Positions 13,701 through 59,622 of a DNA stretch of 64,000 bases are shown piece by piece (the stretch's first letter is position 1; each line of letters begins with the position of its first letter). The notes below the pieces were generated by a model. It had not been told where the DNA came from and did no database searches. It worked only from the letters and a program-made list of their open reading frames with translations. The stretch is from NCBI RefSeq assembly GCF_032854445.1, contig NC_088301.1:22995808-23059807 (forward strand), written 5' to 3'. The position numbers were made by a program, and so were the translations under genes. The DNA is from Liolophura sinensis (taxonomy: Eukaryota; Mollusca; Polyplacophora; Chitonida; Chitonidae).

Positions 13701-16700
13701 GCATTAGGCAGAGTTACGGAGAGAAACAGCCCCAAATGTGTCAGATTGCTGGTCAGGAACATCTACTGCTGTTCACATGGGCATTAAATCATCCCTAGCA
13801 TAAATTGGTACCACAACCATGTGGTATTTATAATTAACTAACCTGTTGTGAAACTCACCGAATCGAAAGGGTCCATGACAATCATGCCTGTTCATGAAAA
13901 AGAATCATATTTTCGGAGCCTATACCATAGCATTTATGAGTTTGCAAGATGGTGGTGGCAGTAAAGTAGACACTAAAGATGTGCTTTTTTTTTTTTTTCA
14001 TTATGTGTTATTGCCATATGGACTATTTTTTGATCAGGCCAACATAAGATTAGGGTAGTTAATCAGTAGGATCATGCGGTTAACATTGATTCGTCGTTGG
14101 GAAAATTTAATGCCCGTGCAAACAGTGGTAAATGTTCCTTACTCTCAATCCGGCATTGACAGTATTATTTTATTGTTTCTTTCTGTAATTCCCGCAACTG
14201 CATTACTCTACCTTAGAGTTACATCGCGCAACTAGCATTAAATGGGCGGGCTCTTGAAATGATTTGGTTCCCCTCGCATCACTGTAAAGTGTTGCTATTG
14301 AGCCCTGTGGGTATTAGATGAAAGGAATGTATAAATATCCTCTGTATTGCGTGGTAAGCCTGCTATTGAAGTGATGTTACATGAAGTTTGTAGGGGTTTA
14401 CTTCTCTTCCACCAATATAGCATGCTTGTAGCTCTGATATCATTTAGATGGGTAACATGGCATGCCTAACCTGAACACGAATATACCTCAGTAGATGTAA
14501 GTTTTCAGAACTTGTCAAAATATGAACATTGACTCAGTGTTCATCTGTTTAGATTATTTAGGTTGTTGTTGTTGTTGTTGTAGTGATGGTGTTATGAACT
14601 ACCCACGTAAACCCAAAAAGAAACCTCCTCGTGAAGAAACCACATCAGTCTGTCTGGTCTGTTGTCATCATCAGGAGAAATCCAAGCGAAAATTCCTTTT
14701 ATTGAAAAGAAAGGAACAAGGTTAGTGTTCACGTTTTTATCGTGTGAATTATGATACAAGCAAGAAAATTGTAATTATAGTTTTGCCCAACCCACATTAA
14801 ATCAGATTGTTACCCTCCCAAGGAGAGTACTGACTTGTTGCTGAGTAGAGCAGAAGTAACACCTCCCCCCAGCCTACCTGCTGACCCTTTTTGGCTGGCC
14901 TCTGTATCTGCGCATGTAACAATAATTGTGTTGGGTCATTTCAAATTTTCTTGTTTGTCAACTATATTGTCTTGTTTGTCAACTATATTGTCTTGTTTGT
15001 CAACCGTGTTTTCTTGTTTGTCAACTTTGTTTTCAGGCTTGTTAGCGGGCCTGTGGGAATTCCCAAGTCTGAAACAGGAAGGTGCAAAGAAAGAGGAGGC
15101 AGAGGTCTGGTTACAAACTAACTACTCACTTTGTCTGCCTGCTGATACTCAGATAGAACATGTAGGCCAGGTGAGTGCTAGTATTCTACATATGGGCCAG
15201 GTGAGTGCATGTAATAAACATACAAAGCATATGAGTGCAGGTAGTCAGTACATGGGCCAGGTGAATTCGGGTGGTAAACATAAAGGGCAAGTGAGTGGAG
15301 GTACTGAATATTTGGGCCAAGTGAGTGAAGATAATAAATGTACGGGCTAGATGAGTGTGAGTAATAAATGTATGGTCCAAGTGAATGAAAGAAAGAAATA
15401 CAGGGAGTATAGAAAATTAACATGTTAGCCTGGTGAGTATAGGTAATGGACATATTAAATGAGCATAGGAAATGAACATATCAGCTGGGTCAGTATAGGA
15501 TATTAACATTTGATCCAAGCGAGTTTTAATGAAATGAACATATCAGCCTATTGAGAACAGAAAATGAACACATCAGCTGTGTGAGTATAGGGAATTAACA
15601 TATCAGAGAGGCAGGTAAAGAAATTAACATATTAGCCAGATATCAGCCAGGTGAGTATAGGAAATTAGGATATGAGCCTTTTGTGATAGGGGCTAAGCTC
15701 ATAAGCATGGTGAGAATTGGCAATTAATATGTAAGCCTGGTGAGAATAGGCAATTAAAATATCAACCAGGTGAGGATAGGTAATGAATGCATTCATTGGG
15801 TGAGTACATTTTCATGAAATTAACTTATTAGCCAGGTGAGTACCAGAATTACAGGAAGTGCCAGGTGAGTACCAGAATTACAGGAAGTGCCAGGTGAGTA
15901 CCAGAATTACAGAAAGTGCCAGGTGAGTACCAGAATTACAGGAAGTGCCAGGTGAGTACCAGAATTACAGGAAGTGCCAGGTGAGTACCAGAATTACAGG
16001 AAGTGCCAGGTGAGTACCAGAATTACAGGAAGTGCCAGGTGAGTACCAGAATTACAGGAAGTGCCAGGTGAGTACCAGAATTACAGGAAGTGCCAGGTGA
16101 GTACCAGAATTATAGGAAGTACCAGGTGAGTACCAGAGTTACAGGAAGTGCCAGGTGAGTACCAGAATTATAGGAAGTGCCAGGTGAGTACCAGAATTAT
16201 AGGAAGTGCCAGGTGAGTACCAGAATTACAGGAAGTGCCAGGTGAGTACCAGAATTACAGGAAGTGCCAGGTGAGTACCAGAATTACAGGAAGTGCCAGG
16301 TGAGTACCAGAATTATAGGAAGTGCCAGGTGAGTACCAGAATTACAGGAAGTGCCAGGTGAGTACCAGAATTATAGGAAGTGCCAGGTGAGTACCAGAAT
16401 TATAGGAAGTGCCAGGTGAGTACCAGAATTATAGGAAGTGCCAGGTGAGTAGTATGGACACTAAAAATAAGATAAGTGCAGGAGTTGAATATGTAAGCAA
16501 AGTGAGTATAGAAAATTAACATAGGTATAGAATAATCAGATATTATATAGGTATGTACATTGTATTTACACCTGGGGTTTTACATCTTACTTCAGTCATA
16601 TCACGATGAGGAGTCATTAGGTGTGTGTACATATATTGTGTCTTTTTGTGGCAGGGCGAGTCCATGCCGCCAAGTGCTGCCGCCCAGTCACATTACACTG

Positions 16701-22120: not shown

Positions 22121-22679
22121 CCAATTCACACAAACGATCAAGTAATGGAGTTCACTATTTGTGATGTGACGTACAACAGGGGGATATATGCTACATAATT
22201 ATGCTTTAAAATGGCTATAATGACCTGTGCCATTAACAAATACTTACAACGACAATATTTTTACACCACTGAGTGTCGTCACGTCACCTGACGTGCTGTC
22301 GCGAAGTAGATATACCATGTACCTTTCGCAATGTTCAGAAAGCAGCTAGATGTGTGTGACCCTTATGCACGTGTACTGAATGCACAACCAGGTCAGCTTG
22401 TATCTTACAGCTCCACTGTTTTATGTGGGACACCACTGTGGGCGTTGTGGATAGCGTGCGGTGGATGTAGTAGTTTTCTGAGGTGGTCCGTTAGTGCCAT
22501 ACAAATTGTATAGATTTCTACCAGGATTCATTGGCGTTTTTTTTTTCCTCAGAATTTATCTTCCAGGACCAACGAATTTGTATACAAAAGCAAATTAAAC
22601 AGACACAGAAAAAAAGTAAAATCGATAAGTTAAGCTATTAAATTCGAAACACTTTTTTCCGCTGAGAAACCTGTCCGTG

Positions 22680-23233: not shown

Positions 23234-26200
23234 ATGGTGAAGGAAGTGTTTATTACACTGGCTGGAAACAAGCAGGTTTACAGGGCTGGAGAGCTGGTAT
23301 CGGGCGAATGTATACTGGAGCTTACTGAACCGGAGACCGCTAAGGCCGTCAGCATGTACTTCTACGGGAGGTCTATGGTCAAATGGGAGGACGTGGAAAT
23401 AGGAATTGGTCACTTCGGTCACGCCATCCTGCCTAAACCAAAGACGGTTAACCGGGAAAGCAGGGAAGACTATTTCGCCTTCGTGTTGACACTCTGGGGC
23501 TCCAAGAGTAAGAAATGCGATAGGCCTGTAGCCTATATGTATATATACAAACACAAAATAATCTGTTAATTTTATTGATTGATTTATTTATTTATTTCAT
23601 TGGTGTTTTACGCCGTACTCAAGAATATTTCACTTATTCGACGGCGGCCAGGATTATGATGGGAGGAAACCGGGCAGGGCCCGGGGAAAACCCAGGACCA
23701 TCCGCAGGTTGCAGACAGACCTTCCCACTTACGGCCGGAGAGCTGTTAATTTTAACGTAAAGTCTGTTGTCCGAGTGAGGGACGCTAAAATGTGGTCTGT
23801 TATTATAGCATACCGTACGTGGGAATGTCTGGCAGCGACCTGCGGATGATTGTGGGCTTTGCCCGGTTTCCTTCCAGCATGAAATGCTGGCCTCCGTCGT
23901 ATAAGTGAAATTTTCTTGAGCACGGCGTAAAACACCAATGTAATAAATAAATACATAAATAAAAAAAGTTATAGCATAATATGGCGTCATATGCAATGTA
24001 TTATCCTTTTCCTCAAACCAGCACAACATGCAGTGTGTTGATACCGCATGTGGTGAACTCAGTATCACTGTGTGTTGTAAGAAATAGCTGAATACTCGGT
24101 GGAATCTATATCATATTCTGTTGAAATAACCAAAATCCGGACGCTGTGAGTTAAAATCCAGCTCATGCTGGCTTTCTCTCCAGTCGTATGTGGGTTGGTC
24201 GACGAGCAACCTGCAGATGGTCGTGGGTTTCCCCTGGGCTCTGTCTGGTTTTTTCCGACCATAATGTTGTCCGCCGTCGTATAAGTGAAATACTCTTGAA
24301 CACAGAGTGAAACAACAATCAAAAATAAATAAATAATGATAATCTTGTAAACTTAGTAAAATTTATTTTTAAGAAGAGCAGCGATTGGAATGATTGGAAA
24401 ATGGTCACACGTAACCGGTGAAATACGGCCTCTTGTCAGTTTATCTCAGTTAGGGTTTTATTCTAATCGTTCATGCAAATGCATAAATAATAGCATATTA
24501 AATTGCCGATTACTAAACGTCTAGAATGACTGAAAATGCCATTATTATTACATGTAACATTAATAATGAAAGTATGTTGAAAAACAAAATATTATGGCGA
24601 TATTCTCGTAAATGTATTCTGAAAATTATACAACATACTCTTGTGAACTTATCTAAACCATGTGAAGAACCTGGATACAGGCGTCAACTCAACACAAGAG
24701 GCTGTTGAAATAATAAAAATAAAACACTCGCTTGAAAGTCATTTGAAATAACCAAATCATACATCATTAACAATAAAAGTTGATCTCTTATAAATTTTTT
24801 TATTACCTAGATGGCCCAAAGTCTGAGCTCCCTCCTGGCACTCATCGCTGGAAGTTTAACTTCAAGCTCCCACAGCGCCCCCTACCGTCTTCATTTGAAG
24901 GAGAACACGGGGCAATCCGTTACTGGCTTAAGATAGAAATTCACAAGCCCTTCCCATGGCCGAATTTCAGACGTTACCGGTGTATTACAGTGCTGGACGA
25001 TCTCAATCTCAACGCCCCCCACTACAGTGTAAGATCGAGTTAAGCCGTGTTCTCTTTACCCTCGATTCCTGCAAGAGCAAAATTCTCCGTGCGAGTAAAA
25101 CCCCGATACCTAAAACGTCTCTAAGTACCCAGGAAATCCTCAAATCCCCCCAAATCGTCTCCATGTATTGAGAACCTTTAGATCCCCAAAAGTTTTTCCA
25201 AGATTCATGATACTCGAAATGACTAAAAAAAATCGCAACGCATCCCACAAAGTCCCTGAAATTTATCCGCAGATATACAGCTTTCTTTCATCAAACATCT
25301 CCATAAAATACCTCTAAGTATCGAGAAACCTTAAGCTTCCTAAACGTTATTCGTTTATTCAGTTCTCTACAATTCCCCAAAGCTTTTCCCTGTATCCAGT
25401 ACCCTAAATTCCCTAAAAGATCACCATGTGTACAGTACCCTCAATTCCCTTTCCGTGGCTCTATAACCCTCAATTCAATGAAACTTCTAGGGCTACAGCT
25501 TCCAAATCCCTTTAACATCTCACTATCTAGAACTATCAAATTCACTAACACCTGTCGATCAATCTAGAACATTCAATTCCCAGAAAACATCTCCATATAT
25601 CGATAGAACCGCCATCCCTAAAACATCTCCATGTACCCATGCGGTTCACATGTCCTAGAGGTTCTCCATGAAACTAGAACCCTCGTTTCCCAATATCCGC
25701 CACCCACAACTTTTCTTTTAGTTTTACAAGTATCTAAACCCTGTTTTCCTTAATTTATATGTATATATTTATATATTTGATTGATGTTTTACGCTGCGTA
25801 CCCAAGAAAGTTTGACTTATATGACGGCGGCCAGCATTATGGTGGGAGGAAACCCAGAGCCTGGGGAAACCCACGACGATCCTATGGCCGGAGAGGAAGC
25901 CAGCATGAGGTGGACTCACAGCAACGGCATTGGTGAGAAGCTTCTGGATAATTGCGCCACGCTGGTACGCTAACACACTAACCGGAGGCCCCCTCTTTCC
26001 TTAAACGTTTCTTTAAATGTTTTCCTGTATGTACATGTAGAAGGGGACATTCCAAGCATCCAGAACCTTCAAACTCCCTAAAAGTTCACCATGTATTGAG
26101 ATTTAAATTGAATACCCTGAAGAAGTTCTCCATGTATTTTCAGATTTACTAGAAGTTACCCATGTACATTGTGTCCTTAAATTCTCAAACTTCCTAAAAT

Positions 26201-29200
26201 GTTTCAATGTGTCCAAGACCCTCAAATTGCACACATTCCTACAAACCCTCTCAAATTGCCTAACACGTCCCCATGTAGGCGGAACCTTCGAGATTCTCTG
26301 TCCTTGGTCAAAAGAGGCCCAAAGAAAAATGTTGTATATGATATGGTCGGAATGGAAACCACCAAGTGGTTGTGAATGCTAATAAAGCTTGCTCACATGC
26401 GCTGTTTTACAAACGTTGCAGAAGCCAGTGAGAGGTTCTAACTCAAAGATCATATCCAAAATGCTCGGATTCGGAAATGTTGGCACAATCAAATTGATTG
26501 CGAATACTGACAGACGAGGTTACGCTCCTGGGGAGAAGATTGGCATTTGTGGTAAGTCAAACAAGCAAACGCTCTCTTCCTTGCAATCTGTTACGAACCC
26601 GTATTGGTGTCAGAAACAAATTCGATATAGACAATCGGTGTTAACGTTTTTATATCCGTGGTTACGGCTTTCTTATTCGTTTTTTCGAATTTAACGTTCA
26701 TTATCCGGAGATGGGCGTCTATTGAATTAAAATGGACTGACACACAATAGTTCCGAGCAAAATCAGCATTGTAAACCCAGAATGGACATGATGGCATTAT
26801 TTTGATTATGAACACGATAATCTATTATTTCCTTCCATTCTGTCAATAAGCACTTTTAAAATGATGTACATGTAAAAAAAATAAGTCAATCTCAAATATT
26901 GGCTTAAAAATCATGGGAATGGCTCCGTGGTGTTTCACGTCAGTCTGTGCATCATGAGAATCTCTCATATTCTCAGCCACCATGGTGAACGACTCCGCCA
27001 AGGTTATGGACGGGTCCAGAGCAAAGCTTATTCAGAGGGCTCAGTACTTCGCCAGTGGGAAAGAGAAAACCGTCGAAAAAACAGTGGCTGAAATCTACGG
27101 AGCAGAGATACCAAAGGTTTGACAAAGAATAAAGTTGTATATGTACATCTTTTGGGCTGACATGTATGCATTGTTGTGGGAGTGCGCCGATTTCCATTGA
27201 GTTACAATGATGCAACATGCAATAATAAGTGAAATCGGAATATAGAAAAGTATATATACTGATTTTCACCGGAAGTAGATATGAGAATATATTGAAGAAG
27301 TAAAGTTTTTTTACAGTATTTGTTTTAAGTATACATATGAAGAAAAAAGGGACGTGTCCACTGTTTGAGGATGATGCAGCTATGTATTTAATATATTTAA
27401 GATAGTTTAATATACAATGCATTTACAAAGCTTTAAGACAAAGGAGTTCGATTGATGAGCCACATACCGCACGGTCGTGAGAATGTACGACATCATGTTT
27501 GATGATTTTCAGGGAGTCACTATGAAATCGGTGTGGGAATGTATGCCATTCTGTTTGATAATTTTTAGGGATTCACCACAAAGTCGGTGTGAGAATATAT
27601 GCTGTTCTGTTTGATGATTTTCAGGGAGTCACAATGAAATTGGTGTGGGAATGTATGCCATTCTGTTTGATAATTTTTAGGGATTCACCACAAAGTCGGT
27701 GTGAGAATATATGCTGTTCTGTTTGATAATTTTTAGGGATTCACCACAAAGTCGGTGTGAGAATATATGCTGTTCTGTTTGATAATTTTTAGGGATTCAC
27801 CACAAAGTCGGTGTGAGAATATATGCTATTCTGTTTGATGATTTTCAGGGAGTCACTATGAAGTGGGAGTGGGAATGTATGACACTAGGCTGCCTTCCCC
27901 CGTCCTCCAGAAGCGGAAGTTGTCACATACTCAGGATTTCCTACTACATAAAGGTTAGATTCGGATTTAACTGCTCACTTAAGTTATGTGTGAGATATAT
28001 ATGTATACATACACAATATCTGGCACTTGGTACTCTATAAATGGCTCATGCACTTTAAACAAAAGACATCACTCGACCAAGTGTGTACACGCATGAATAA
28101 AGTATCCTACAGGAAGTCTAAAAAGCATGACGTAGCACAACTGAGATATGGCAGCTCGCAGTAAACAAAATCGTGCACATTGAGGCGATCAAAAATGCCG
28201 CCATGTTATCAGCTTTAAGCAGTCAGGCGTGTGTTATTTCAATAACCCAAGGACGCAGCTCTTTCCGCTTACGTCATCCGAACCCTGTTTTGCCTTTTAA
28301 CCATATGTGCATGGGGTACGAGTGATACGAGTTTCCGGTTTGCTCTATCCTGGCGCATCCCTTGACCTCGTAAGAGTTCCTGATTAAGAGTTGATCTATG
28401 GAGTTACCAAATACGTCAGAAAAAATGTCGATGGCCGTTTAGATCTATTTTCGCCCCTCCTCCTAAGCAACTAGTGATATTATTTGTCTTTTCCTTTACG
28501 TGTCACTTTCGTCGTATCCTCTCCGCATTGACCATATCAGTCGGGTCTGATGTTTGAATAGCTGGTGTGGTTGCGGCCTTTAGTCAGGTACCTGACACAG
28601 TGCGATAGTTTTCTCCAACCTCTAATAGATTTGCTCCGCCCATACATCGGACATCGTTGTGTAGAGATTATTTAAACCTAAAATTTAATAGAAGTACAAA
28701 AAAGTAGAACCATTTCAGGTGAAATCTTTGCATGTCTAAATAACCACTGCATATGTAAAATAAAATACAATTTTGAAATATCTGTTCGTGTGATTGTGTA
28801 TTTCTTGTAGTATAAAGCTTGCTATCTGGCATAATGTCTTCAGGAAGCATAAATGGTCCACATTTTGTCTAACCGAAATCTGTTTACATATAATCCCTTA
28901 CGATTGTTCAATTTTTTGGGTTTTTGACTCATATACCCCACTTATTACGTATGCGAACGGCCGTTCTATACTTCAGATGTTTATCGCGGTTCCTTTCGGT
29001 TTTGACCTTCATGTTCACTTACCAGTGGTTATAGGAACAGTTCCCCGTGGGTACAGATCTGGGGTCACTCCAGGTGAGTGTGTCCTGACGAGGGGAGAAT
29101 ACTTGTCTACTCGTCAATGTCAACCTTGTGTGGATTTGAACCAACGGGCACTGGCATTCTAATCTTTGCTCTCTACAACTAGCCTATATCTTGTTCCAAG

Positions 29201-29870
29201 CATACGTTGTTACATTCATCCCTTTATTGTTAACACGTTAACAATTTTTAATCTTGATCAGTTTGCTTTTTGTCACATTTTTTTTTGTTTCATCATTCGC
29301 CTACACATGTATGAAAACTTCCACATTTAGGGGCAAGTACATGTCACAAAATATACCATTTGGTGCTAAAACTTATATTTGCTCAAAAGGATATAATCCT
29401 ACCTTATAAACAAATACAGGTCTCCAGAAACCTGCGGATGGTCTATACGGGGGTTTATACGGGGCTCTGCCCGGTTTCCTCCCATCATAATGCTGTCCGC
29501 CGTCGCGCAAGTGAAATATTCTTGAGTACGCTTATTGAAATAAATGAATCCCAACAAACCTCAAAATCTTTCTCTGTGACCATCAGAACTCTCAGAAATT
29601 ACGAAAAGTCACCAAATAAATCATGGACAAAACTTTGGATGATATATAGACTAATATAGTGTAAGATTGTATGTTTCAGGAAAAGCACCCGTTACCTCCT
29701 ATGCCAAATGCAACCAAGGTTTTGAAGCGTTTCCTGAGTCGGATTCGGTCTTTCCAAACATTGACTACACCCCAATGACGGCTTTTGTACCAAATTTCCG
29801 GTTTACCGCCCCTGTTCCTGGACAAAAACCTGCACTCGCTCCAGTAACAGCTAAGGCTACACCTAAAAAG
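23234..29870 (+). CDS. Arrestin N and C domains (alpha-arrestin, ARRDC-like)
   Basis: Residues 1-385. The N domain (about 1-160) starts MVKEVFITLAGNKQVYRAGE and holds LPPGTHRWKFNFKLP, then LPSSFEGEHGAIRYWLKIEI, the ARRDC signature. The C domain (about 175-320) holds IKLIANTDRRGYAPGEKIGI, CHILRISYYIK and LPVVIGTVPRGYRSG, aligning in order with human ARRDC3 from memory. The tail to 385 includes FPNIDYTPMTAFVPNF, a motif position shared with invertebrate ARRDCs. No PPxY motif for NEDD4-type ligases is seen. Exon 1 has no competing upstream ATG in frame. Donor AAGA|GTAAGA is used in exon 1; AGT|GTAAGA in exon 2. Confidence 0.92.
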
Positions 29871-32800
29871 GTTAGTAATACGAAAAAGTACAGCATAGAA
29901 GGAGAAAACTGGTGCATGCATGCATACAACTTAAACGCTCTTTAGCCTGAAAGGCTTAAGCAGAATTAGGTAAAATAAATTCAGTGATCTAAACAGCAAC
30001 TTAAGCTTCATTTTACCGTAAAAAAGTAATTTTTTTAACCGTGATTGATATTAATAAACATTGTTTTACGTGTAAATGACAGGTAATTTATTTGTAATCT
30101 TTGTGACTTGTTTTATTTCTCCGCACAGACAAGTTCTCTTCCTGCCGTTTCGTGTTGCTGTCTGGTGATACGGTTTCTTGGTGATCAGCTACCAATACTA
30201 CAGAGTTCGCTGCGCGCGAATAAATCCACTCTGGAAGATCTCGGTGCCACCGTGATCGGAGTTACAGACAAGGTATTAGTTGTGCTATATACTGCTCTCT
30301 GTGACACACTGAGTCAATAGGCAAAAGCTGGTGATGTGTGAGACACTCAGTATAAAGGTTAGCATTGTGTGCTAAATAAGTTATTTCTTTATTTGATCTG
30401 AGCCAATCAGGCCTCAGTAGCCATCAAGGTATCCATATTTTGTTCAATCAATAATGCAGTAATCATTAAAATTAAAGAGTTATACGTAAACACAGGAAGG
30501 AGTGGATGAAGTAAGTCTCGTTCCAAACGTCAGAAAAACAATCAATTATTAGCATTTGTACACAGCTTCATTTAATCCACTTATCCATTTTTCAGTTGGA
30601 ATACCAAAAAACACCATCGCAGAAATCGTTTGTTTAACCGTTTGTTCTGTTAATGTATCTATTTGTTAAACCGAGAAACAGAACTAAAATCAGTCAATTA
30701 AGAAAGCATTTGCAAACCATTTCATTTATTTATTCATTTGATTGGTGTTTTACGCCGTACTCAAGAATATTTCACTTATACGATGGCGGCTAGCATTATG
30801 GTGGGAGGAAAAACATTTGACCTATCACATTTGACCTAACACATGATGTATTACATTGGCTGACAGTATTATTCAAGAATATTTCACATAAACGATGGCG
30901 GCTAGCATTATGGTGGGAGGAAACCGGACAGAGTCCGGAAGAAACCCACGACCAACCTTGTGTTGCTGTCAGACCTTCCCACTTAAAACCGTGCTCAAGA
31001 ATTTTTCACTTGTATGACAGGGCTCAGGTTTATGAGTGGAGGAAGTCGAAGTGATGACCCTTACAATGTACTGCTCACTTAAAACCGCACAAATAGCGAG
31101 AACTGGATTCGAATGCGCAACCTCATTGGTCAAGCGCAGTTCAGTAACCAGCACTTTAACAGTTTGGGCCAGCAAAGACAACCCAAATTAGCCACTATAA
31201 TAGCCATTGGTACCTATAGGTGGCCCAGGCCGAAGGGTACCCGTGGAACGAGGGTCAAGGACTGGCCTTAATTGTTTTCCCCACCAAGGACAAGGCAAAA
31301 GATTGGGTTAGTACCACCCCAGAGGTATCTGACCATGACTGGCTGGAAGGGGCCGACATTACCCTGTTCACTATGAGAGAAGCCAACAAACCAGGTAAGA
31401 GTTTCATCGTAAACTAACCATGTCCGGTCTCATCAAGTGCATTATTCGCGGTACCCTTAGTGCCCCTTCGTACCGTCTACAGCACTGTGAGAATAACGCA
31501 AATGTGTTAGTTAGTCTGGCATCAGTGTCTTGAAATATCATACTGATTCATGAATATATTCTCACTCATTAATATATATACCGACGCATAAATATATTGC
31601 CTAGCGGCAGGGTTAGTAGGGGAATGAAACCGAGCATAATCATGCTGATTATATTTGAAATATAAACTTACCAATTTTGAATTAAGAGAATTGTATACAA
31701 TCTTATATTTTACCAAAAAGTGGAACTTATTTCAAAACTGGTCATTTTCTACTTCAGAATTGTCTATAACTTCATATGAATTGTTTATTTCCAAACTGAC
31801 ATTTTATGTCAAAAACAATAATTCATCTCAAAGCTTTACATGTAATCCAAAATATCACCTTTATGTCTGTAACTATATAACCGTAACCTATATCTAAAAA
31901 AAATTTCTGAAAGAATTTGTTGTGGATACCCAGCGTTGTTGTTCGGCCTATATTCGTTCATCGTATCCTTGACCTAAAACATTTGACCTATCACATTTGA
32001 CCTATCACATTTGACCTAACACATGATGTATTACACTGGCTGACAGTTTTACCTTTGTGTCTAACAAATATACGTCACGCTGTTAAGAACTGATATACAA
32101 CTTGACTGGAGATATTAATACTTTTATAGCAAAATATATGTGATTTCGATTTGCAGATATTTCCGAAGGATTTTTCAGTATCGAGTTAACGAAATGCTCT
32201 AGGAGTATATCACAGGAGGAGATCACGAAATTAGGCAGGGTCTATACTCCTAAGTCGAGAGCCGCAAGGTATGGGGACATGTATGATCTTCAGTTAAGAT
32301 CTACTCTCTCTAACGATATTTTCTCGCATATATCCATTTTATCCAGCAGCTTTCAACCACAATGGACGTTCCGGGTCAGTAATTGTAAGGACAATTACCA
32401 AAGGAATATTCAAAACAGTACAAATATATGAGAAAGTATAGAAAGTATTTAGTTCATTGGTATATTACTCTTACGACGGAGGCTAGCATAACGGTGGAAA
32501 GAAAACCGGGCAGAGCACGGGGAAACCCCCGACCAACCACAGGTTGCTGACAGCATTTCACACGTACGACCGGAGAGGAAGCCAGTTGGACTTGAATACA
32601 GCGACCACATTGGGGAAATGCTCCTGATGGATCATTGCGCCGCGCTGGCAAACTAACAGCCTCGGCCACGGAGGCCCAAGTATAAAAAAAATAAGAAATT
32701 AGAACAGCGTTACATAAAGAGATGAATCATCATGCATGAATACAGGAAAACATCATCCACAGACCGTGCAAAAGTTCCTCTTGTGTAGAATGGGTTGTGT

Positions 32801-35800
32801 AATGACAGAAGCCCGCCCCATGTGTTCCGGCAGTGAGCTATAGTGTCTTTCCTGAAAAAAAATTCTTAAAGAATTTGACACATGTACATTAATTTTGCGT
32901 ACCACAGGTAATTGTTCCCTTAAACGAGCAATAAGGGCCAAGATTTCAACGAATTCTCTCACCAGTCTCCCATAACAATACGCAATTTTTGAGTTACGGT
33001 ACGTCATTACGACTCTGGGATCAGGAGGCAATCTCAGATTTAAGTCAAAATTTCAAATCACTTTGAAGTTGTTATTTCCTATGTAATGCGGTCTGAATAT
33101 TGCTTGATAACGCAGATTCTGGATAACTTTTTGTAGGACAAATTTCAGCTTAAATGATGGAAAGAAACATACCAAATTTAATGATTAAAATTTTGACTTA
33201 AGTCTAAGGTTGCTTCGTGATCCCATGACAAGAATTGTCTTTGTTTTGTGGCACTAAACATGACAAGTTCCCTCTATTTCAACATGACAGTATTAATGTT
33301 TCGTCAAAACTACCGAGAGAACAGGATTATTTTGGCAATATTTGACACTCAAGCACGGAAACTAATTCCAAATTCCGAAGATTAATCTTCATTTAATTGG
33401 TCTTCTATATTCACTATGTACTACCAATGTTAAAATTCGCATATTCACCTTACCATGGTGTAAAGCTGTAACAGTGGCACCGCTTAATTTTCGTAGGTAC
33501 AGACTTACCCAATGACGATGCTCGGGAAACTTGATAAACATTGCTACAGCGGGAAAGAGTACTCAGTTATGACCCATTACCAAACAGGCATAGTCCATCC
33601 GGATGTTGTCTATGGGGAGGTAACTCATGCAATGGTATAGTTCTGTGTACTACATTACTGAGTAAATGGGCTACACGCATGTGTTATCTTCCATTGGAGA
33701 ACATCTAGATGGCTCTCTGCCTGTCTTGGTCACGGGTCATTACTAAGTACATATTGTTTCACATTTATATGCGATCGGGCTTTTGTGTCTAAAAAATATT
33801 GATCTCTATTGGTTTTTTGCAATGTTTACCTGTTCAATGTGCTTGTTTATTTTTACCTAGAGGGCTTCATGGCGGAGCGTTGTTAATCAGCGCGGGATCA
33901 AAGAGCTGGGAGCACCTCCGTGGTGCGGTCGTTTCAAGCCCTAACATCCTTACCTGCTTACAGTGGCCTAGCGAGGGAAGTTACGAAAAATACCTGTACT
34001 CACTACAAACAGGTAAGACTTTGACAACAAGGAGGAGAGCGAAATACTAAGTGCATGTATACATGTGACGACAATTTGACAAACTTGCCAGATGGTCCCC
34101 CGATGGCGGTTTAACATAAAACGAAGGAATATCTTCGTATGCAGTTTGGTGAAAGTGACCTTGACCATATGAATATTTGCTCATGCATGTGGCTACTAAA
34201 ACAATTTTTCACTTTTTTTTAACCGCTAAGCTAGTTGAATATTGTCGACATAACACTAGCAATCAGAATATGATGTAAAAGATTGCTATAGATGCGCAGT
34301 AATACATATCGGCCTGCAAAGGACAATTATTTGACCTAGAAAAGACAATATAAAACTCTGCCCACAATTGTTTCTCTTAGCGGAGAAACGTGGACAAGAA
34401 ATGATTGCGTGGAAGAAGATGCATTTTTTGATCAGTAAAGTGTTTAGGGTCATGCAACAACCTGCGGATGGTCGTGGGTTTCCCCCGGACCCTGACCGGT
34501 TTCCTCCCACTATAATGCTGGCGGCATAAGTGAAATATTCTTGAGTACGGCGTAAAACACCAATCAAATAAATAAATAAAATAAATTAAGTGTGTAGGGG
34601 CCTTCGTGCCAGCGTGGCGCAATGACCGATGCGGTCGCTGTGAGTTCAAGTGCAGTTCATGCTGGCTTCTTCTTCGGCCTTACGTCCTTTATAGTACTTT
34701 GCTTTACAAGCGACCACGTAATACAGGCTGTATAGTTACAATCAGAAGAGGTTAATTCATTGTGATCAAATTGCCAGCAAATTTTACTGTAAAAAAAAAA
34801 TCCTTGTTTTGACTGTATATAACTTCATAACATACATAGAAATGTACATAAATAGCGTCATTCAGAGATTTTCAACTTTTCGGTATGGCCAAAAGAAGAA
34901 TACAAAGAGGCTATGGACTTCTGGTCGACACTATTCAGACGAGAAAGCCGGGTTACCTTGGAAACCATGAATATGCGTTGGTGGTCGGAAGAGAGTGTTG
35001 GTGACATCAGTAACACAAACGTTCAAACTGTGAAGGTCTGTATGTATACAGCTGATTGAATTTTTGATGTTTATGTGGCTGATTGGTGTGCCATAGGATG
35101 TTAAAAGACACGTTAAAAGAACAGATCATCTTAATAAAAAATAGTACGCCCCATCGTGCTGCTCCAAAATATGGTTTCATCATTTTATTTAATCACATTT
35201 TTTACGTTGAATAAAATCCCCAAAAGATCGAGGTTCTACGGTGAACGTTTTGGACCATACTGAATAACGTCATAAGTGACGTCAACTATGGTTTTTAGCT
35301 GCTCTGATTGCCATGCATACATTTCTGTGTTTTACATGAATAAAACATTTAGCACATATCTACATGTGAATCTGTGTTTAATGTGCAGAGCATGTTTATA
35401 GACTGAAAAGATATTGTGGGGGTCACTGTGTTTAAAATGGCGCAAAGACTCCACTGTAGAACCTCAGTGCTAGTTTGGGATTATATTCACTGTAAAATGT
35501 AAAATCTAACCATGACATCCGACACCCGTGTACCATGCACTCGTACATATACAGCTTAAGGGATGCTACCAGTCAAAAATCGCAAGAACTGTGTTTGGAA
35601 GCTACATGAAATGGGCTTTCAGATTATGAGTACTTAATTTAGATGTGGTGTACTCCTTTAAAAGACCTTCTAGAAAGATCGTTTGGAAATTAAACCATCT
35701 TCGCCAGACAAGTGGTACAGGCACGATGCTCTATACACTCAAGTATCATGACCTGAGAAGATCACATTAAAGAGGTCATCAAGGAATAATTCAGTAATTT

Positions 35801-38555
35801 TTCTTTTATCGCACTTGAACTAGTTTATCAGTTAAACCAGTACGTTGTTAGAAGCTATAGCTCTTCCGTATTGGGGGCCTCCGTTGCCGTGGTCATTAGC
35901 GTACCAGTGCGCAGCAATGACCCAGGAACCTCTCACCAATGTCGTCGCTGTGAGTTCGCGTCCAGCTCATGCTGGCTTCCTCTTTGGCTGTACGTGGGAA
36001 GCTCTGCTAGCAACGTGGGGAAGTGCCCGGTTTCCTCCAACCATATTGCTGGCTGCCGTCGTATAAGTGAAATATTCTTGAGTAGGGCGTAAAACTCCAA
36101 TTAAATAAATAAATAATTTTTAGGTATTGTATAGATGGGCAATTTTTTTTTCAAAGTCGGAAAGTTATTTTTTTAATTGAAACAATATTTTATCCCTTAG
36201 GTCCATTCCACACTATCTTCACCTCCGTGCTCTGCCCGATTTCCTCCAACCATAATGTTGGCCGTAAACAATCTTCACATGGAGTGCATAATACCGTTAT
36301 TTGAAATAAGAGTTCAATGTATTTGGGTATTTTAAATCTATATGAAACAAATAATTATCATACAATGTTCACAGACCCAGGAAAAAGAAGATGTCGAAAC
36401 CGGAGTTTATTTCGTCATTCGGTTTCCTTTCGAGAAATTTACTCAATTCCAAGATGCTATAAAAGAAAAGAAGGTTCTTTTGAAGGAGTTGAAAGGGCGG
36501 CTTGTGGCAATGGCCCCACAGGTAAGTGTGCCATATTGGTAATTTTAGAAGGTGTGAAACCCTTTTATCTGTGTTCCTGCACTTAACAGAAACGTTGACC
36601 TCTCTGAAATCATATATATTTTCATTCGATCTACATTCCGTTAATTTTTTAAAAATTACATGTAGACTGTGATTATTAATTTATTTCCTTGTTCTTAACT
36701 ACCGATTTTAATAACTATTCACTTATACAAAGAATTTTAGGGTTTTGGATGAAGGAAGTATGATTTATAGCAGAGTAAGCCTCAACACTTCCACAGGCAG
36801 ATTCATCCGGCAAACCTGTAGCCATTAGTGAACCATGCGTCTATAGCTTTCAATCTGATCTATAGGTACCGTTGGGCTTGTGTTGTTTTGGTGCCGTCGA
36901 GATTTTCCACATTTTCAAGTCTATAAAACTATAAAATTGCTTTGTTATATATTCTAGGCCACAAATTATGGGAATTTTGATTTGCGTCAGCAGAGGGTAA
37001 AAGGCTGGTCTTTCCTGCCCAGAAGAAACTCTTCATTTTAGTAGAAAATGTCCGAGGGTAAATTATCTTCATTGAGATAAGAAAAGTCAGGTTTAATTAT
37101 GGGTGTGTAAGTATAGCATTTCATTAAAGAGACTATACCGGAAAGTTTTGACAAAAAGTAAAACATGGTCGAATTTTTTGTTATTATTTTAAAGAAGCCC
37201 AAATAATTACCTGCCATGAACTACCAGTATGTGCTCGCGCTCAAGAACTTTTACGAAAGTAGGATCAGTTTAACACTGTAAAATAGTACAGACACGAGTG
37301 TGATATTTTCTGAAGGCAGTGATTTGAGCTGTTCTTAATAAACAGAGAGAAATTGATTTGATTAATGAATATGGATTGGTTGTTTGTGTTTGTTTTTGTC
37401 AAAAATATCCGGTATGGCGTCTTTAAAGAAAAAAAAAAACAATTTTATCAATTCTTAAAGTCGTTCTATTCAGATCATGACGACCGAAGGAACCACGTGG
37501 CCCGTGGGCAAGACCTTAGCCATTGTAAGGTTTAAGGCTTCCGAGGAAGCCAAACAGTGGTTTGGGGAGATCGGGGAATTACCTAACACTGCCTGGCTGA
37601 GCGAATGTGACGTTCTTATCGTGAAGATGACAGAACGAAGCCACGATGGTGAGTTTCCCGCTAGTGTTCTTTCCATGCATGTTTCTTGTTCTATTGTCCT
37701 TTTGTCAGATACATGTACATATACATGTACATATCTGATCGTGGAGATAACAGAACAAAATCACGATGGGAAGTTATCTTCCCTTGCTATAGTGTTCTGT
37801 CCATGTATTTTCTTGTTTTGTTGTCTGTTTTGTCAGATACATATACTTGTAAGCCTATATCTGATCGTGGAGACAATACAATGAAGTCACAATGATGAGA
37901 TACACATGTATTTCCCATCTAGTCCCATTTAGTTTTAATATATATTTGTGACTGGAACATTTTTAACAAATTCATATCGTGCATAAAAAAGAGAAACGCA
38001 CAATTCAAATAACACTGCATAGACTTCTCCGTAAACAGACAATACGATCAGCACCTAACTCTTTAGAAATGGAGGTAATGAAATTTCTTTGACATTTCTC
38101 AATCTAATGCACCTATACACTGTGAATAGTAATTTTAATAGAATTTGCGACATATTTTAGTGGGCCGAGTGTTCAAACTTCTATTTTTATCCGAATGAGT
38201 CAAGTTTTGTTCTAGTGCTGGTGTTATGATCGTAGTGTAAAGCTTGGCATATGGCACCGAACGACTTTTTCGGCGTTTGCTGTACAGAAGTTATGCTACA
38301 CCAACCTGACGAAGGTTGTCAAATATGACACGGATTGAAGTCATTCACCAGTTTATGTTCTTGCACAGATGATGGTACATTTGTCCTGACGACTTCTACA
38401 ATATGTCTGAAGAAAGAATATGTTGGCTGGTGGAAGGAATTGCTCGAAGAAATAAAAGCAGTAAGGTATGGACTGACATATCAAAACAACAAAATGTTCA
38501 TGATTTAGTCAGTTAATTAAACTTATTAGTTCGTACGATTAGATAGATATACATG

Positions 38556-38613
<58 letters not shown>

Positions 38614-40055
38614 AGCTTAGTTTGTTTGGTTGGTTGGTTGGTTGGTTGGTTGGTTGAGGTAAAGTTAACAGTACCCGTTCCATGAATCTAGGTGCCAAAA
38701 CAGACAGTCGTATACCCAGCCTTCCACCAAAATGGACATCCGGGTCAATAATTGCTATGCCAATTTCCAAAACAGCGTTCGTCACAAACCACCAAAAAAC
38801 TAAGAAAGTATATGAAGTAAGAAGTTAGGACGGATTCATAAAAAGAGAAACTGTCAGGAGCTGTAAATCGTGACGGAAAGATGCGGTTGTAAGGAGTGTT
38901 CTAAGCAAATGAATTAAATCAGCGGCCAGTCGCGTACCATGCTGGCTTTAAAAGTCGTCGGGGTCTCCGTGTCCTCTCACCAATGCAATCGCTGTGGGTT
39001 CAAGCCTAGTTCATGCTGGTTTCCTCTCAGGTCTTCCAGGAACATGCGGATGGTTTCCTTTGGGCCCTAACCCGGTTTCTCGCACACAGTGCTGGCTGCT
39101 ATCGTATAAATGAAATATTATTGAATGTGGCGTAAAAAAACCAATCAAATAAATAAGTACGGTAAATATATAAATATAAGTTGTCGATAATGGAAATATG
39201 TATGAGCTTTACCATAAAGGCTGGCAGGTTTTGACACTCATATACATGTTGCAAGTTGCAAATTTCAAGTCTCCATATAACATGCCCATACGAACCCCCT
39301 ATCTAGTTCTTGGGAACAGTGTTACGTTTGCGCCCATTTGATACTTATTTCCTTTGTTCAGGTTGAAGCACGATGGCGTGGCTATTTTTGGTATTAGCGA
39401 CATGAAAAAAAAGTATGAAAGACTCCAGGGAGATTGGCTTACGGAAGGTGACTGGCTGAAAGATAAGAGGGTTTGTGGCTGTGTCCAGTTTCCCAACGCG
39501 CAGGCGTACTTTGCTTGCAAGGCAGAACTTGATAAAGGTACGTGTATATGTGCAACCCTTATATACGAACAAAATTTAATATGTTTCAATCTTTCGGAAT
39601 AAATCATTACATATTACAAAACTTAGTGTCATTTGAGGAAATGTCTCCAGAACTGTTTTCATTAAAGTCTTATCTGGGTGAAGAAATGTATTAAAAGAGA
39701 AGGAATGTTGTGACCCCTGGATTAAAAGCTCACATAGCTTTTTATAAAGGAGCCAACATTACGATTATTTCTTTGGACGATAATTTTTATACAATTGGTA
39801 TTGCATCACTCGTAAACCTGAGTCCCGTCATATAAATACAGCACTGACGTGATATACCGATCAAATAAACACATAAATCAAATAAATAAATTTCTTTTGT
39901 TTTCAGGGAAACATGCGGACAAAAAGAAACAATTGATACAAACTGAACAGGCGCTTCTATTTGAGACAGTAGATTTGTGTTGGCTGAAGGACGACGACAC
40001 AGAAGACATGGCTGGTAAAGATGATGAACATGCAGGTGAGAATAGAGTCGAGTAA
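23234..40055 (+). CDS. Alpha-arrestin fused to a duplicated DUF1330-like module (883 codons)
   Basis: Seventeen exons: 23234-23507, 24811-25028, 26422-26551, 26977-27116, 27849-27953, 28977-29073, 29680-29870, 30129-30272, 31220-31394, 32157-32268, 33861-34012, 34866-35035, 36375-36521, 37474-37648, 38369-38465, 39362-39537, 39907-40055. Every junction is GT-AG and every phase matches, giving one uninterrupted frame of 883 codons plus TAA. The first seven exons form both arrestin domains; the last ten are two copies of a five-exon module. Alpha-arrestins are cytosolic adaptors linking membrane proteins to ubiquitin ligases and endosomes; the function of the module is unknown. No start codon or promoter is evident before the module, which favours one gene. 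The alternative is two genes, with the arrestin ending at 29945. Fusion itself is inference. Confidence 0.65.
23575..23745 (-). mobile_element. SINE family A, inverted partner 1
   Basis: Tail-first on plus (ATTTATTTCATTGGTG), with the body to the AACGGCCGGAG-like region. It lies in intron 1 of the arrestin gene, 55 bases from an opposite copy. Confidence 0.88.
23800..23955 (+). mobile_element. SINE family A, inverted partner 2
   Basis: Body and tail (CCGTCGTATAAGTGAAATTT, GGCGTAAAACACCAATG). It faces the copy at 23575-23745, so transcripts could fold into a hairpin of about 150 bp. Confidence 0.88.
24140..24335 (+). mobile_element. SINE family A copy
   Basis: The second half of the head (TGTGAGTTAAAATCCAGCTC), body and A-rich tail are present. 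It lies in intron 1 of the arrestin gene. Confidence 0.87.
25750..25990 (-). mobile_element. SINE family A, nearly full length
   Basis: Tail, body and tRNA head (minus strand) are present, with a deletion in the body near the ACCTGC region. It lies in arrestin intron 2. Confidence 0.88.
27470..27890 (+). repeat. 56-bp array of an acceptor plus exon start
   Basis: Six upstream copies precede the real junction at 27848/27849. Acceptor-like ends sit at about 27512, 27568, 27624, 27680, 27736 and 27792, each reading TTTGATRATTTTCAG or TTTGATAATTTTTAG and then GGAGTCACTATGAA or GGATTCACCACAAA. The unit takes in the last 20 or so bases of the intron and the first 30 or so of exon 5 of the arrestin gene. 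Confidence 0.93.
28530..28640 (+). mobile_element. SINE family B fragment
   Basis: Shares GTCAGGTACCTG and the TTTTCTCCAACC region with the other family B copies; diverged. Confidence 0.45.
29420..29545 (+). mobile_element. SINE family A, 3' half
   Basis: Body and end (CTGCGGATGGTCTATACGG, CCGTCGCGCAAGTGAAATAT). It ends about 135 bases before the arrestin exon at 29680. Confidence 0.83.
29974..29979 (+). terminator. Possible intronic poly(A) signal giving an arrestin-only product
   Basis: AATAAA stands 29 bases after an in-frame TAG (29943-29945), reached if the donor at 29871 is not spliced. That would add 24 codons (VSNTKKYSIEGENW and onward) to the arrestin and end the protein without the module. 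Confidence 0.4.
30129..35035 (+). CDS. DUF1330-like module, copy 1 (five exons)
   Basis: Exons 30129-30272, 31220-31394, 32157-32268, 33861-34012 and 34866-35035; phases 0-0, 0-1, 1-2, 2-1, 1-0; 251 codons. Exons 1 and 2 read like one ferredoxin-like beta-alpha-beta unit: LEDLGATVIGV, then EGYPWNEGQGLALIVFPTKD and KAKDWVSTTPEV, which resembles the DUF1330 pattern of Glu-Gly-Trp, a strand, Phe-Pro, then Ala-x-x-Trp. Exons 3 to 5 look like a second, more diverged unit (GGALLISAG, IFNFSVWPKEEYKEAMDFW). No catalytic motif, signal peptide or membrane segment is seen. The family name is from memory; the internal homology to copy 2 is direct. Confidence 0.7.
30722..30985 (-). mobile_element. SINE family A with internal filler
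   Basis: Two partial copies of the same tail region (AAGAATATTTCACTTATACG) flank about 60 bases (30811-30868) containing ACATTTGACCTATC repeats. The filler is also found at 31975-32050, so this is a nested insertion or local duplication. Confidence 0.75.
32335..32450 (+). repeat. Intron segment shared with the second module copy
   Basis: AATGGACGTTCCGGGTCAGT and flanking bases match 38705-38820 (AATGGACATCCGGGTCAATA). Both lie in the intron after exon 3 of their module, and both donors read AAG|GTATGG. Confidence 0.7.
32457..32674 (-). mobile_element. SINE family A, near full length
   Basis: Head GGCCTCCGTGGCCGAGG on minus, body and part of the tail. It lies in the intron after exon 3 of module copy 1. 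Confidence 0.9.
33497..33619 (+). other. Orphan exon-like segment of 41 codons, phase-incompatible
   Basis: Acceptor TTTTCGTAG and donor GAG|GTAACT bound 123 nt that are open in one frame (KEYSVMTHYQTGIVHPDVV). Joined to the phase-2 exons on either side it is read in another frame and meets TGA within six codons. The gene model is perfect without it, and module copy 2 has no equivalent. Either chance or a premature-stop cassette. Confidence 0.45.
34452..34690 (+). mobile_element. Two partial SINE family A copies
   Basis: 34452-34588 is the body and tail with AAATAAATAAATAAAATAAA; 34600-34690 is the head of another copy (GGGGCCTTCGTGCCAGCG, GTTCAAGTGC). Same orientation, so the second inserted at or near the tail of the first. 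Confidence 0.85.
35872..36116 (+). mobile_element. SINE family A, full length
   Basis: Head GGGGCCTCCGTTGCCGTGG, B-box-like GAGTTCGCGTCC, body with CCAACCATATTGCTGGC, tail ACTCCAATTAAATAAATAA. It lies in the intron between the two modules. Confidence 0.92.
36375..40055 (+). CDS. DUF1330-like module, copy 2 (five exons, carries the stop)
   Basis: Exons 36375-36521, 37474-37648, 38369-38465, 39362-39537, 39907-40055; entry phases 0, 0, 1, 2, 1, as in copy 1; 247 codons and TAA. Exon 2 is 175 nt in both copies. It aligns exon by exon: VYFVIRFPFEKF with CCCLVIRFLGDQ; EGTTWPVGKTLAIVRFKASE with EGYPWNEGQGLALIVFPTKD; AKQWFGE with AKDWVST; LFETVDLCWLKDDDTEDMA with TLETMNMRWWSEESVGDIS. Exon 4 is longer and gives LQGDWLTEGDW and VCGCVQFPNAQAYFACKAEL, another EG-W, F-P, A-x-x-x pattern. 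The acidic C-terminus ends GKDDEHAGENRVE. A donor-like CAG|GTGAGA at 40036 could extend the gene by splicing, but no further exon is seen. Confidence 0.7.
37612..37925 (+). repeat. About 120-bp repeat of an exon end plus donor, 2.5 copies
   Basis: The end of the exon at 37474-37648 (ATCGTGAAGATGACAGAACG, GCCACGATG|GTGAGT) and the next 80 bases are repeated from about 37730 (GATCGTGGAGATAACAGAAC) and 37855 (GATCGTGGAGACAATACAAT). The donor has decayed to GGGAAG and then ATGAGA in copies 2 and 3. Confidence 0.9.
38556..38657 (+). repeat. (TTAG)n then (GGTT)n microsatellite
   Basis: Pure AGTT repeats followed by GGTT repeats, in the intron after exon 3 of module copy 2. Confidence 0.95.
38935..39165 (+). 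mobile_element. SINE family A, diverged
   Basis: Disordered head (GTCGGGGTCTCCGTG), B-box-like GTTCAAGCC, body and CCAATCAAATAAATAAGTA tail. Confidence 0.82.
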
Positions 40056-40067
40056 TGCAAGCATGTC

Positions 40068-40500
40068 AGTTACCGTCAACATCAACACCACGAAACATAG
40101 CGGCAATAATGGGACAGTCAGCCGTGTATCAGAGAGCAGTCACCGTCAACAGCAAAGCACAGCTGGACACGGCAACAGCAATGTGACAGTCATCCGTGTA
40201 TCAGAGAGCAGTCACCGTCAACAGCAAAGCACAGCTGGACACGGCAACAGCAATGTGACAGTCATCCGTGTATCAGAGAGCACTTACCGTCAACATCAAC
40301 ACAGCCAGACACAGCAACAGCAATGTGACAGTTAGCCGTGTATCAAAGAGTAGTCACCGTGAACATCAAAACACAGCCAGAACACAGCAGCAGTAATGTA
40401 TCAGTGAGCAGTTACCGTCAACATTAGCACAGCGTGGAACAGCGGCAGGAATGTGACTGCCAGCTATGTATCAGTGAGTAGCCGCCGTCAACAGCAACCC
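40068..40500 (+). repeat. 72-bp minisatellite starting 12 bases after the stop codon
   Basis: About six units with GTCACCGTCAACAGCAAAGC, ACAGCTGGACACGGCAACAG and GTGACAGTCATCCGTGTATC. Two central copies are nearly identical. The unit is a multiple of three, so one frame (40021-40335) repeats a 24-residue unit, but this is not the frame of the gene; it probably lies in the 3'UTR. Confidence 0.88.
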
Positions 40501-41750: not shown

Positions 41751-43281
41751 TACTCTCCCAAAAAAGAAACGCAACATCCGATTCGTTTTATCCAAATATG
41801 AATTTTTCAACATCATCTTAAATACAAAAATAAGCATCACATCACACTGAAATTTTCCACACTGGTTGTTCAGACTTTTAAGTTAATTACAATGTCAAAA
41901 TTTATCACATTAAAGTCCATAGCACTCAGATGACGTCACTGCAAAGTCAATATCTGCTATGCCCACCATTAACCTGTAACACAGCGCGAATCCGTCTCGG
42001 CATAGACATGATCAATCGGCGAATACGGTTTTGCGGAATTCTTCTCCATTCTTGGTCAAGAGCCTGCAGCACTTCTTGCTGAGTTTGGGGCGCTGGATGA
42101 CGACTGCGCAAGCGTTTTCCCGTCATCCGACAAATGTTCTATTGGGTTCAAATCTGGTGATTTGGACGGCCAGGGCAGCACTGTTACGTTTTGGTTCCCC
42201 AGAAAGTCAACCGTAGCACGAGCTGTATGCGGCCGACCGTTGTCGTGCTGAAAAACTTCCCTACGAAGGTCCATTATGGGCAGCATGTGTGGCGTCAAAA
42301 CCTCATCTTTGTATCGAGCGGCGTTAAGGTTGCCTGGGATGTGCACCAGTTGAGATTTTCGGGCGTATGATATGGCACCCCACACCATCACACTTCCTCC
42401 ACCGAAATTGTCGACTTCAAGGACGCAGTTCCTTGCAAACCTCTCATTTCGGCGTCTGTAGACGCGTGTACGGCCATCTCTTTTCTCCAGCATGAATCTG
42501 GATTCATCGCTGAACCAGGCTCGCCTCCAATTTCGCAGATTCCAGTCCCTTAATCTGTTGCACCATCGTACCCTTGCGCGTCGATGCTGTTGTCTCAGTA
42601 CTACGCCAAAGTAAGGACGTCTGGGACGTAAGCCGTTTTCACGGAGATGGTTCCTGACTGTCTGTGCCGATATTCGTCGGAGACCTGGGACATTTGATGC
42701 TGTTTCTGTTGCTGTTACGGTTCGGTTTCTGAGATGAAGTAACCGGATGTAACGGTCTTGGGCTGCTGTTGTGACCCTAGGTCGGCCATAACGTTGACGG
42801 TCAGCTGTTGAACCGGATTGCTGGTACCGTTGCCAGAGCCGGGAAATCGTGCTCCGGTGAACATGATAAAGTCTAGCGACTGCATTCTGTGATTCACCGG
42901 TGAGGAGTGGACCAATGACGATGTTCCGGGTAGCGGTGTCTAGTCTTGGCATATCTTGGCAGGTTGGAGAAGCAACTTAGTGACTGAATTCAACGGAACG
43001 GTTATGTGTCTTTTATACCCATTAAATCCGCTTAAAAATACGGCATAATTCGCAGGTGCAACTGTCCTAAGTTTTTCTCTACGAATCCCTCGCGCAGCGT
43101 TACACAAAGGCCGACCCTTAAGTCACGTGTGACCAACAGACACTATCTGGTGTTTAAATTCAATTATCGTACATTTACACTATAATATGATCATGTTGTC
43201 ATGTCTCAATCACGCCAATTTTTTGAAGAATTTATGATTGATCTTTTGGGGGGGATGTTGCGTTTCTTTTTTGGGAGAGTA
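41751..43281 (-). mobile_element. Tc1-like DNA transposon with perfect ends
   Basis: A 29-bp perfect terminal inverted repeat beginning TACTCTCCCAAAAAAGAAAC at 41751 and reversed at 43253-43281, flanked by TA on both sides (41749-41750, 43282-43283). Total 1,531 bp with a single transposase gene. Intact ends suggest a fairly young copy. Confidence 0.96.
42056..42952 (-). CDS. Tc1-like transposase (DD34E), C-terminus frameshifted
   Basis: 298 codons of a family usually near 340. N-terminal helix-turn-helix (residues 1-90: TGESQNAVARLYHVHRSTIS) and an RPRV linker. The catalytic triad is present: Asp in WFSDESRF, Asp in FQHDNGRPHTA, and Glu in SPDLNPIEHL, with 34 residues between the last two. 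Just after IEHL the frame shifts (the usual W is S here); the normal C-terminus continues in another frame to about 41960 (SRHPAPQTQQEVLQALDQEW, then RIPQNRIRRLI). The protein is probably inactive, though triad and element ends are whole. Confidence 0.95.
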   Translation of the reverse strand: MPRLDTATRNIVIGPLLTGESQNAVARLYHVHRSTISRLWQRYQQSGSTADRQRYGRPRVTTAAQDRYIRLLHLRNRTVTATETASNVPGLRRISAQTVRNHLRENGLRPRRPYFGVVLRQQHRRARVRWCNRLRDWNLRNWRRAWFSDESRFMLEKRDGRTRVYRRRNERFARNCVLEVDNFGGGSVMVWGAISYARKSQLVHIPGNLNAARYKDEVLTPHMLPIMDLRREVFQHDNGRPHTARATVDFLGNQNVTVLPWPSKSPDLNPIEHLSDDGKTLAQSSSSAPNSARSAAGS

Positions 43282-59275: not shown

Positions 59276-59622
59276 GATTTTGACCTAACTATTAAATTAA
59301 ATTAACATTTTGTATTGTTTACGGTGGCCATAATTGAGGGGACCCTGTCTGAATACATGCAGCTGCAGAGGCCAGTCGCTTAGGTTAAGTTACATTACGT
59401 TAGACTTACTTTCTAAGGTCTTAGTTCACAACTATGTAACTCTTGTGAACACTTTGTGAAGCTGCATGATGGACACTAATGTATGCAATATTTACGACTA
59501 GTGAACGCTTAACTGATCAGCCGAGCGGTTTTGGTTAAGCTATAGGTAGCTGTTTTCTACTTCCAGTGTTAAACGACCTTTCTTCTTGTTTTTCAGCCTC
59601 TTTGAATGGGTATAATTGGACC

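Follow-up and report, generated by a model that had tools for sequence, protein, structure and literature searches.

Gene model at the locus

The window analyzed here was a stretch of 64,000 nucleotides from the genome of the chiton Liolophura sinensis (Polyplacophora), in which a 17-exon gene was found on the plus strand. An earlier note on this DNA had described the gene as one that appears to fuse an alpha-arrestin to tandem DUF1330-like domains. Its 17-exon model was borne out when the gene was rebuilt from open frames and splice sites: the introns were GT-AG in 16/16 cases, the phases were compatible, and the joined frame of 2652 nt consisted of 883 codons and one terminal stop. The exons, with the read-through of exon 7 and the source of each assignment in brackets, were as follows.

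23234..23507, plus strand: exon 1, start codon, arrestin N domain (gene rebuild; Arrestin_N Pfam match)
24811..25028, plus strand: exon 2, arrestin N domain (gene rebuild, Pfam)
26422..26551, plus strand: exon 3, arrestin (gene rebuild, Pfam)
26977..27116, plus strand: exon 4, arrestin C domain (gene rebuild; Arrestin_C Pfam match)
27849..27953, plus strand: exon 5, arrestin C domain; a 56-bp tandem repeat reaches into it, its last copy forming the opening 33 bp (gene rebuild, repeat scan)
28977..29073, plus strand: exon 6, arrestin C domain (gene rebuild, Pfam)
29680..29870, plus strand: exon 7, arrestin end and Ala/Pro/Thr/Lys-rich linker, donor AAG|GTTAGT (gene rebuild)
29871..29945, plus strand: exon 7 read-through to the in-frame stop 29943-29945 (gene rebuild)
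30129..30272, plus strand: exon 8, module 1 first unit (DUF1330-like), phase 0-0 (gene rebuild, Pfam, acceptor score)
31220..31394, plus strand: exon 9, module 1 first unit, phase 0-1 (gene rebuild, Pfam)
32157..32268, plus strand: exon 10, module 1 second unit, phase 1-2 (gene rebuild)
33861..34012, plus strand: exon 11, module 1 second unit, phase 2-1 (gene rebuild)
34896..35035, plus strand: exon 12, module 1 second unit, phase 1-0 (start as in the NCBI protein; 34866 in the earlier note)
36375..36521, plus strand: exon 13, module 2 first unit (DUF1330-like), phase 0-0 (gene rebuild, Pfam)
37474..37648, plus strand: exon 14, module 2 first unit, phase 0-1 (gene rebuild, Pfam)
38369..38465, plus strand: exon 15, module 2 second unit, phase 1-2 (gene rebuild)
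39362..39537, plus strand: exon 16, module 2 second unit, phase 2-1 (gene rebuild)
39907..40055, plus strand: exon 17, module 2 second unit, stop codon 40053-40055 (gene rebuild)

In the NCBI annotation, the product of LOC135470746 (P0001) was an 873-aa protein named 'uncharacterized protein LOC135470746 [Liolophura sinensis]'. Splicing with the exon 12 start at 34896 gave P0001 letter for letter over all 873 residues, and P0001 terminated at the same stop codon as the model of the earlier note. All the other exon boundaries of that model stood, while its exon 12 start at 34866 gave way to 34896. Since P0001 was reproduced exactly with the latter start, the ten additional residues are probably intron. 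Exon 12 from 34896 was 140 nt, closer to its partner exon 17 (149 nt) than the version of 170 nt proposed before. The splice-site scores came from a simple self-made weight matrix with assumed base frequencies; in this matrix the acceptor at 34896 scored -2.45 and that at 34866 scored -1.03, and the choice of the weaker acceptor by NCBI hints at transcript evidence. RNA-seq from five tissues, namely digestive gland, foot, gill, gonad and heart, was made for the Liolophura species, as stated in the excerpt of the assembly paper (PMC11068029), which there uses the name L. japonica; the name was changed to L. sinensis by a correction (PMC12441733).

A strong donor (CAG|GTGAGA at 40035-40036, score 7.0) was present about 18 bp upstream of the exon 17 stop, and an extra 3' exon beyond the donor at 40036 is possible.

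The window also contained tandem repeats and other coding sequences. A 76-bp unit in 12.6 copies (5491-6437) read as an exon end (24 protein letters) followed by a GT donor; this reading scored 25.4 bits with the Pfam helix-hairpin-helix motif, whose cut-off is 24, and presumably resembles MutY/MUTYH. The ORF at 14835-15350 matched NUDIX_4 weakly, with 19.8 bits against a cut-off of 35, and is possibly the end of the same MutY-like gene. Two more tandem repeats lay at splice-like or exon-end sequence, one at 15831-16451 with a 29-bp unit holding CAGGTGAGTACC and one of 72 bp (40067-40399) that began 12 bp past the exon 17 stop. The 56-bp repeat (6.9 copies, 27496-27881) ended within exon 5 and copied the acceptor region and the first exon bases, so that spare acceptor copies lie upstream of exon 5. 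The repeats suggest a tendency to begin at exon edges in this window. ORFs of the IIGP family (interferon-inducible GTPase; cut-off 24) were found at 52461-53681 on the minus strand (231.2 bits) and at 59566-60294 on the plus strand (140.5 bits). The minus-strand ORF at 42056-42952 encoded a 298-aa transposase with DDE_3 and HTH_Tnp_Tc3_2 domains, which we take to be Tc1-like.

The arrestin part and its relatives

Pfam analysis of P0001 revealed Arrestin_N at residues 7-159 (104.3 bits; cut-off 24.9) and Arrestin_C at residues 185-312 (87 bits; cut-off 27.7). All eight PDB matches of the arrestin part at E up to 1 were TXNIP, ARRDC3 or a chain named 'ARRestin Domain protein' (8/8), and visual and beta-arrestins were not among these eight. 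Judged from these matches, the arrestin part belongs with the alpha-arrestins. The known animal alpha-arrestins are built of an arrestin core with a tail that is largely disordered. A motif scan of the chiton protein revealed no PPxY, the motif that lets alpha-arrestins bring Nedd4-type ligases to membrane proteins (PMC10945707, in excerpt). According to the same excerpt (PMC10945707), human ARRDC5 is counted as an alpha-arrestin although it has no PPxY, so the motif is not strictly required for membership.

The arrestin part was searched against proteins of 326 to 1038 aa, and 4 proteins matched at E 1e-5 among 3491 candidates. Candidates in the homology searches had to share exact five-residue words, so that distant relatives may escape. 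Both matches with molluscan names, P0001 and P0002, were fused proteins; the other two (P0003 and P0004), without an organism name, were arrestins of 493 and 494 aa without a Pfam tail domain. P0002 was the 'arrestin domain-containing protein 1-like' of the abalone Haliotis cracherodii (787 aa). It shared 153/378 identical residues (40%) with the chiton arrestin (E 3e-88) and contained Arrestin_N (102.1 bits) and Arrestin_C (94.2 bits). The abalone protein had the same order as that of the chiton, namely an arrestin, an Ala/Pro-rich linker and a two-unit module. It differed in having one module instead of two, a longer linker with one PPxY motif (PPSY at 452), and an acidic, Ser/Glu-rich C-terminal end.

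P0002 was the one relative found to bear the tail. The search with tail residues 386-883 matched P0001 alone (the 7999 candidates sharing most words were scored). A 337-aa tail without exons 10-12 had no match at E 1e-3 among 1040 candidates, a search whose length limits left out 873-aa proteins and which is thus no proof of absence. One scan of prokaryotic genomes used the arrestin-tail alignment and another, of viral contigs, the first-unit alignment; their 60 and 86 pattern matches, respectively, contained no confirmed relative.

The tail modules and their possible relation to DUF1330

The ten exons of the tail (8-17) form a five-exon module that occurs twice. Exons 8-12 and exons 13-17 had identical phases (0-0, 0-1, 1-2, 2-1, 1-0), the final 1-0 exon of module 2 (exon 17) ending in the stop. 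The exon lengths in module 1 and module 2 were 144/147, 175/175, 112/97, 152/176, and 140/149 nt. Alignment of the two modules showed 24% identity (54/223) and a score that exceeded 300 shuffles by 13.4 s.d. When the tail was compared with itself in BLASTP, the self match alone was reported; in tblastn of the tail against the window, the first units of both modules matched each other (E 4.5e-5 and 1.7e-4).

In each module, the first two exons encoded the first unit and the last three exons encoded the second unit. The first and second units showed no resemblance (hhalign probability 0.2%; alignment scores inside a module 0.3 to 0.9 s.d. lower than for shuffles). Across modules, unit 1 and unit 4 scored 3.2 s.d., equal to the best shuffle, and this was taken as chance.

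Residues 473-692 of the abalone protein aligned with module 2 (59/232 identical, 25%, E 4e-22), and residues 484-712 aligned with module 1 plus the beginning of module 2 (50/234 identical, E 1e-14). Against 300 shuffles, the abalone module scored 17.4 s.d. above with module 2 and 13.5 s.d. above with module 1. Conservation along the full length between chiton and abalone speaks for the modules being folded domains.

The description of the tail as tandem DUF1330-like domains held for two of its four units (exons 8-9 and 13-14) and failed for the units of exons 10-12 and 15-17. Whole P0001 matched DUF1330 (PF07045) with 24.8 bits against the Pfam cut-off of 23, the best stretch being residues 637-704. 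Taken singly, the chiton first units reached 13.6 and 16.2 bits and the abalone first unit 14.3 bits, all below this cut-off. DUF1330 was the sole Pfam family listed in 3/3 first units, which are homologous and hence not independent votes, and it was absent from the whole-protein Pfam matches of P0002 at E up to 1. The second units matched no Pfam family up to E 10. A PDB profile search with the three first units gave 7 matches at E up to 10, with no DUF1330 or barrel protein by name and nothing usable among them, and the second units gave no usable match. NCBIfam flavodoxin models scored 12.7 and 15.6 bits in P0001 against cut-offs of 172 and 175, with none in P0002, and were rejected.

DUF1330 is a member of the dimeric alpha/beta barrels, which often pair. 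The tail could instead be a mollusc-specific fold without kinship to DUF1330 or the barrels, the Pfam match being a marginal chance one; this would leave the fusion itself real. The three low single-unit scores, the absence of DUF1330 from the abalone matches, the seven PDB names and the lack of a family for the second units all favor a separate fold. The exclusive listing of DUF1330 in the three homologous first units and the score of the whole chiton protein above the cut-off point the other way, and we consider a mollusc-specific fold a serious alternative that is nevertheless unlikely.

The junction, a possible mechanism and known parallels

The 29870/30129 junction divides the 883-aa product into 385 residues before it and 498 after it. 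The main argument of the earlier note for a single gene, ten further exons open and in phase, proved weak. Whichever gene owns them, exons 8-17 form one consistent coding unit, so their open frame is uninformative on the link to the arrestin; junction 7/8 alone tests the fusion, and agreement of phase there has a one in three chance. The fusion found its support elsewhere, in the identical junction of the NCBI model LOC135470746 and in the same arrestin-then-tail order in the abalone protein.

The exon 8 acceptor was at the 99.3rd percentile of the AGs in the window. No ATG was present in exon 8, which therefore needs an upstream exon ending in phase 0. The exon 7 donor, with a score of 3.75, was at the 97.7th percentile of GTs and ranked tenth among the model's 16 donors. 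The earlier note had seen no ATG that could start a gene before 30129. Of the GTs at 29871-30100 other than the exon 7 donor itself, one closes an ATG-opened phase-0 first exon (ATG 30076), the single such candidate in the 183 bp from the arrestin stop to exon 8; its donor was very poor (-4.53). Between 22000 and 30128 and outside exon 7, the ATG-opened phase-0 candidates with a donor of at least 3 were 22380-22391 and 25821-25964. Candidates with a donor below 3 are also possible, because the real donors of the model reach down to -0.52.

Reading through exon 7 leads to the in-frame stop at 29943-29945 and would yield a 409-aa arrestin. AATAAA was found downstream at 29974 and 30053, the first 29 bp after the stop. 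This hexamer occurred 84 times in the 64 kb, giving about 0.24 expected in the 183 bp, and the pair is mild evidence for a short product. The GC content of the read-through (29871-29942) was 0.375, compared with 0.476 for exon 7 and 0.500 for exon 8, and it was AT-rich like the intron. The GC3 values of the arrestin and tail parts were similar (0.53 and 0.504). The linker across the chiton junction aligned with the abalone linker at 10/20 identical residues, and 3/2000 shuffles scored as high; because the sequence is of low complexity, this match is supporting evidence only.

These data bear on two other accounts of the gene structure. Two same-strand neighbor genes may have been merged, a 409-aa arrestin ending at 29945 and a tail gene with a missed first coding exon. 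Such a merger would fit the in-frame stop, the AATAAA pair and the two upstream first-exon candidates, and it would need just the one in three agreement of phase at a single junction. Against it, the 183 bp that separate the stop from exon 8 offer no plausible first exon, and the same order in abalone would call for a lasting neighborhood and two mergers, or for a wrong model carried over. The chiton and abalone models may come from one annotation pipeline and hence not be independent; the NCBI pipeline draws on protein evidence from other species, and a merged model can pass between species. Altogether, we regard a merger as very improbable.

The second account, compatible with the fusion, is that both products exist: a 409-aa arrestin made by exon 7 read-through with polyadenylation near 30000, and the fused protein, the choice of 3' end switching the tail on or off. 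The read-through is open to 29945, AATAAA lies 29 bp past the stop, and the exon 7 donor is mid-range among those of the model; yet the stretch is intron-like in base composition, its 24 residues have no notable match in P0002 (score 24, without a shuffle control), and AATAAA is common here by chance. A switch of this kind appears unlikely, though less so than a merger.

A single fused gene is the preferred reading, and on the sequence comparisons the fusion is very likely genuine and of old date. The lines leading to chitons and to gastropods separated early in the evolution of molluscs, so a fusion shared by this chiton and this abalone would be old. It is highly probable that one gene encodes an alpha-arrestin whose C-terminal linker leads into a tail of two conserved two-unit modules, and that the fusion, present in abalone in the same order with one module, predates the chiton lineage, the difference in module number going back either to a gain in the line to the chiton or to a loss in that to the abalone. 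The gene model, the order of its parts, the module duplication and the conservation in one gastropod protein were computed here.

For the fold of the tail, the ligand, the cargo and the ligase, we infer the following. The arrestin part would dock on membrane cargo as alpha-arrestins do. The PPSY in the abalone linker could recruit Nedd4-type ubiquitin ligases, and the chiton form, without PPxY, would need another ligase route. The tail would be a folded module able to dimerise or to bind a ligand or a partner, thereby setting when or where the adaptor works; as a best guess, the two units of one module would pair within the chain and bind the ligand or partner. This mechanism as a whole, with arrestin docking and a folded, binding tail, is tentative and falls somewhat short of an even chance. 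A bolder version would see an old molluscan class of ligand-gated trafficking adaptors, in which the two units of each module form one intramolecular pseudo-dimeric barrel with a pocket and the ligand controls arrestin assembly or cargo release, the chiton protein carrying two sensors in a row; we hold this to be distinctly doubtful, more so than the switch of 3' ends considered above.

If the preferred reading is right, a conserved tail of repeated domain-sized units would be a new mode of regulating alpha-arrestins, and DUF1330-like domains in animals may gain a first role. The fusion is testable at once, because chiton RNA-seq exists and abalone has the same order.

The gene models of both molluscs are already public under generic names; a published description of the architecture, an arrestin with a DUF1330-like tail, was not found in the literature searched, which was mostly open-access. 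The protein has the Arrestin_N and Arrestin_C domains in common with the TXNIP/ARRDC alpha-arrestins and differs from them by four domain-sized units added after the linker. With DUF1330 it shares the weak matches of the first units of its modules; here, these units are paired with a second unit matching no Pfam family and are fused to an arrestin. The papers found to mention DUF1330 concern, by title, bacteria and plants with their microbes. In the literature searched, the closest published parallel was found in the amoebozoan arrestin-related proteins (Dictyostelium Adc and Entamoeba), which, in the excerpt of a 2009 review (PMC2699828), also combine an arrestin core with added known domains. 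That excerpt states that such an organisation seems limited to Amoebozoa (PMC2699828), and the domains added there differ from the chiton tail, being SAM, MIT, LIM, FYVE, and C2 (PMC2699828).
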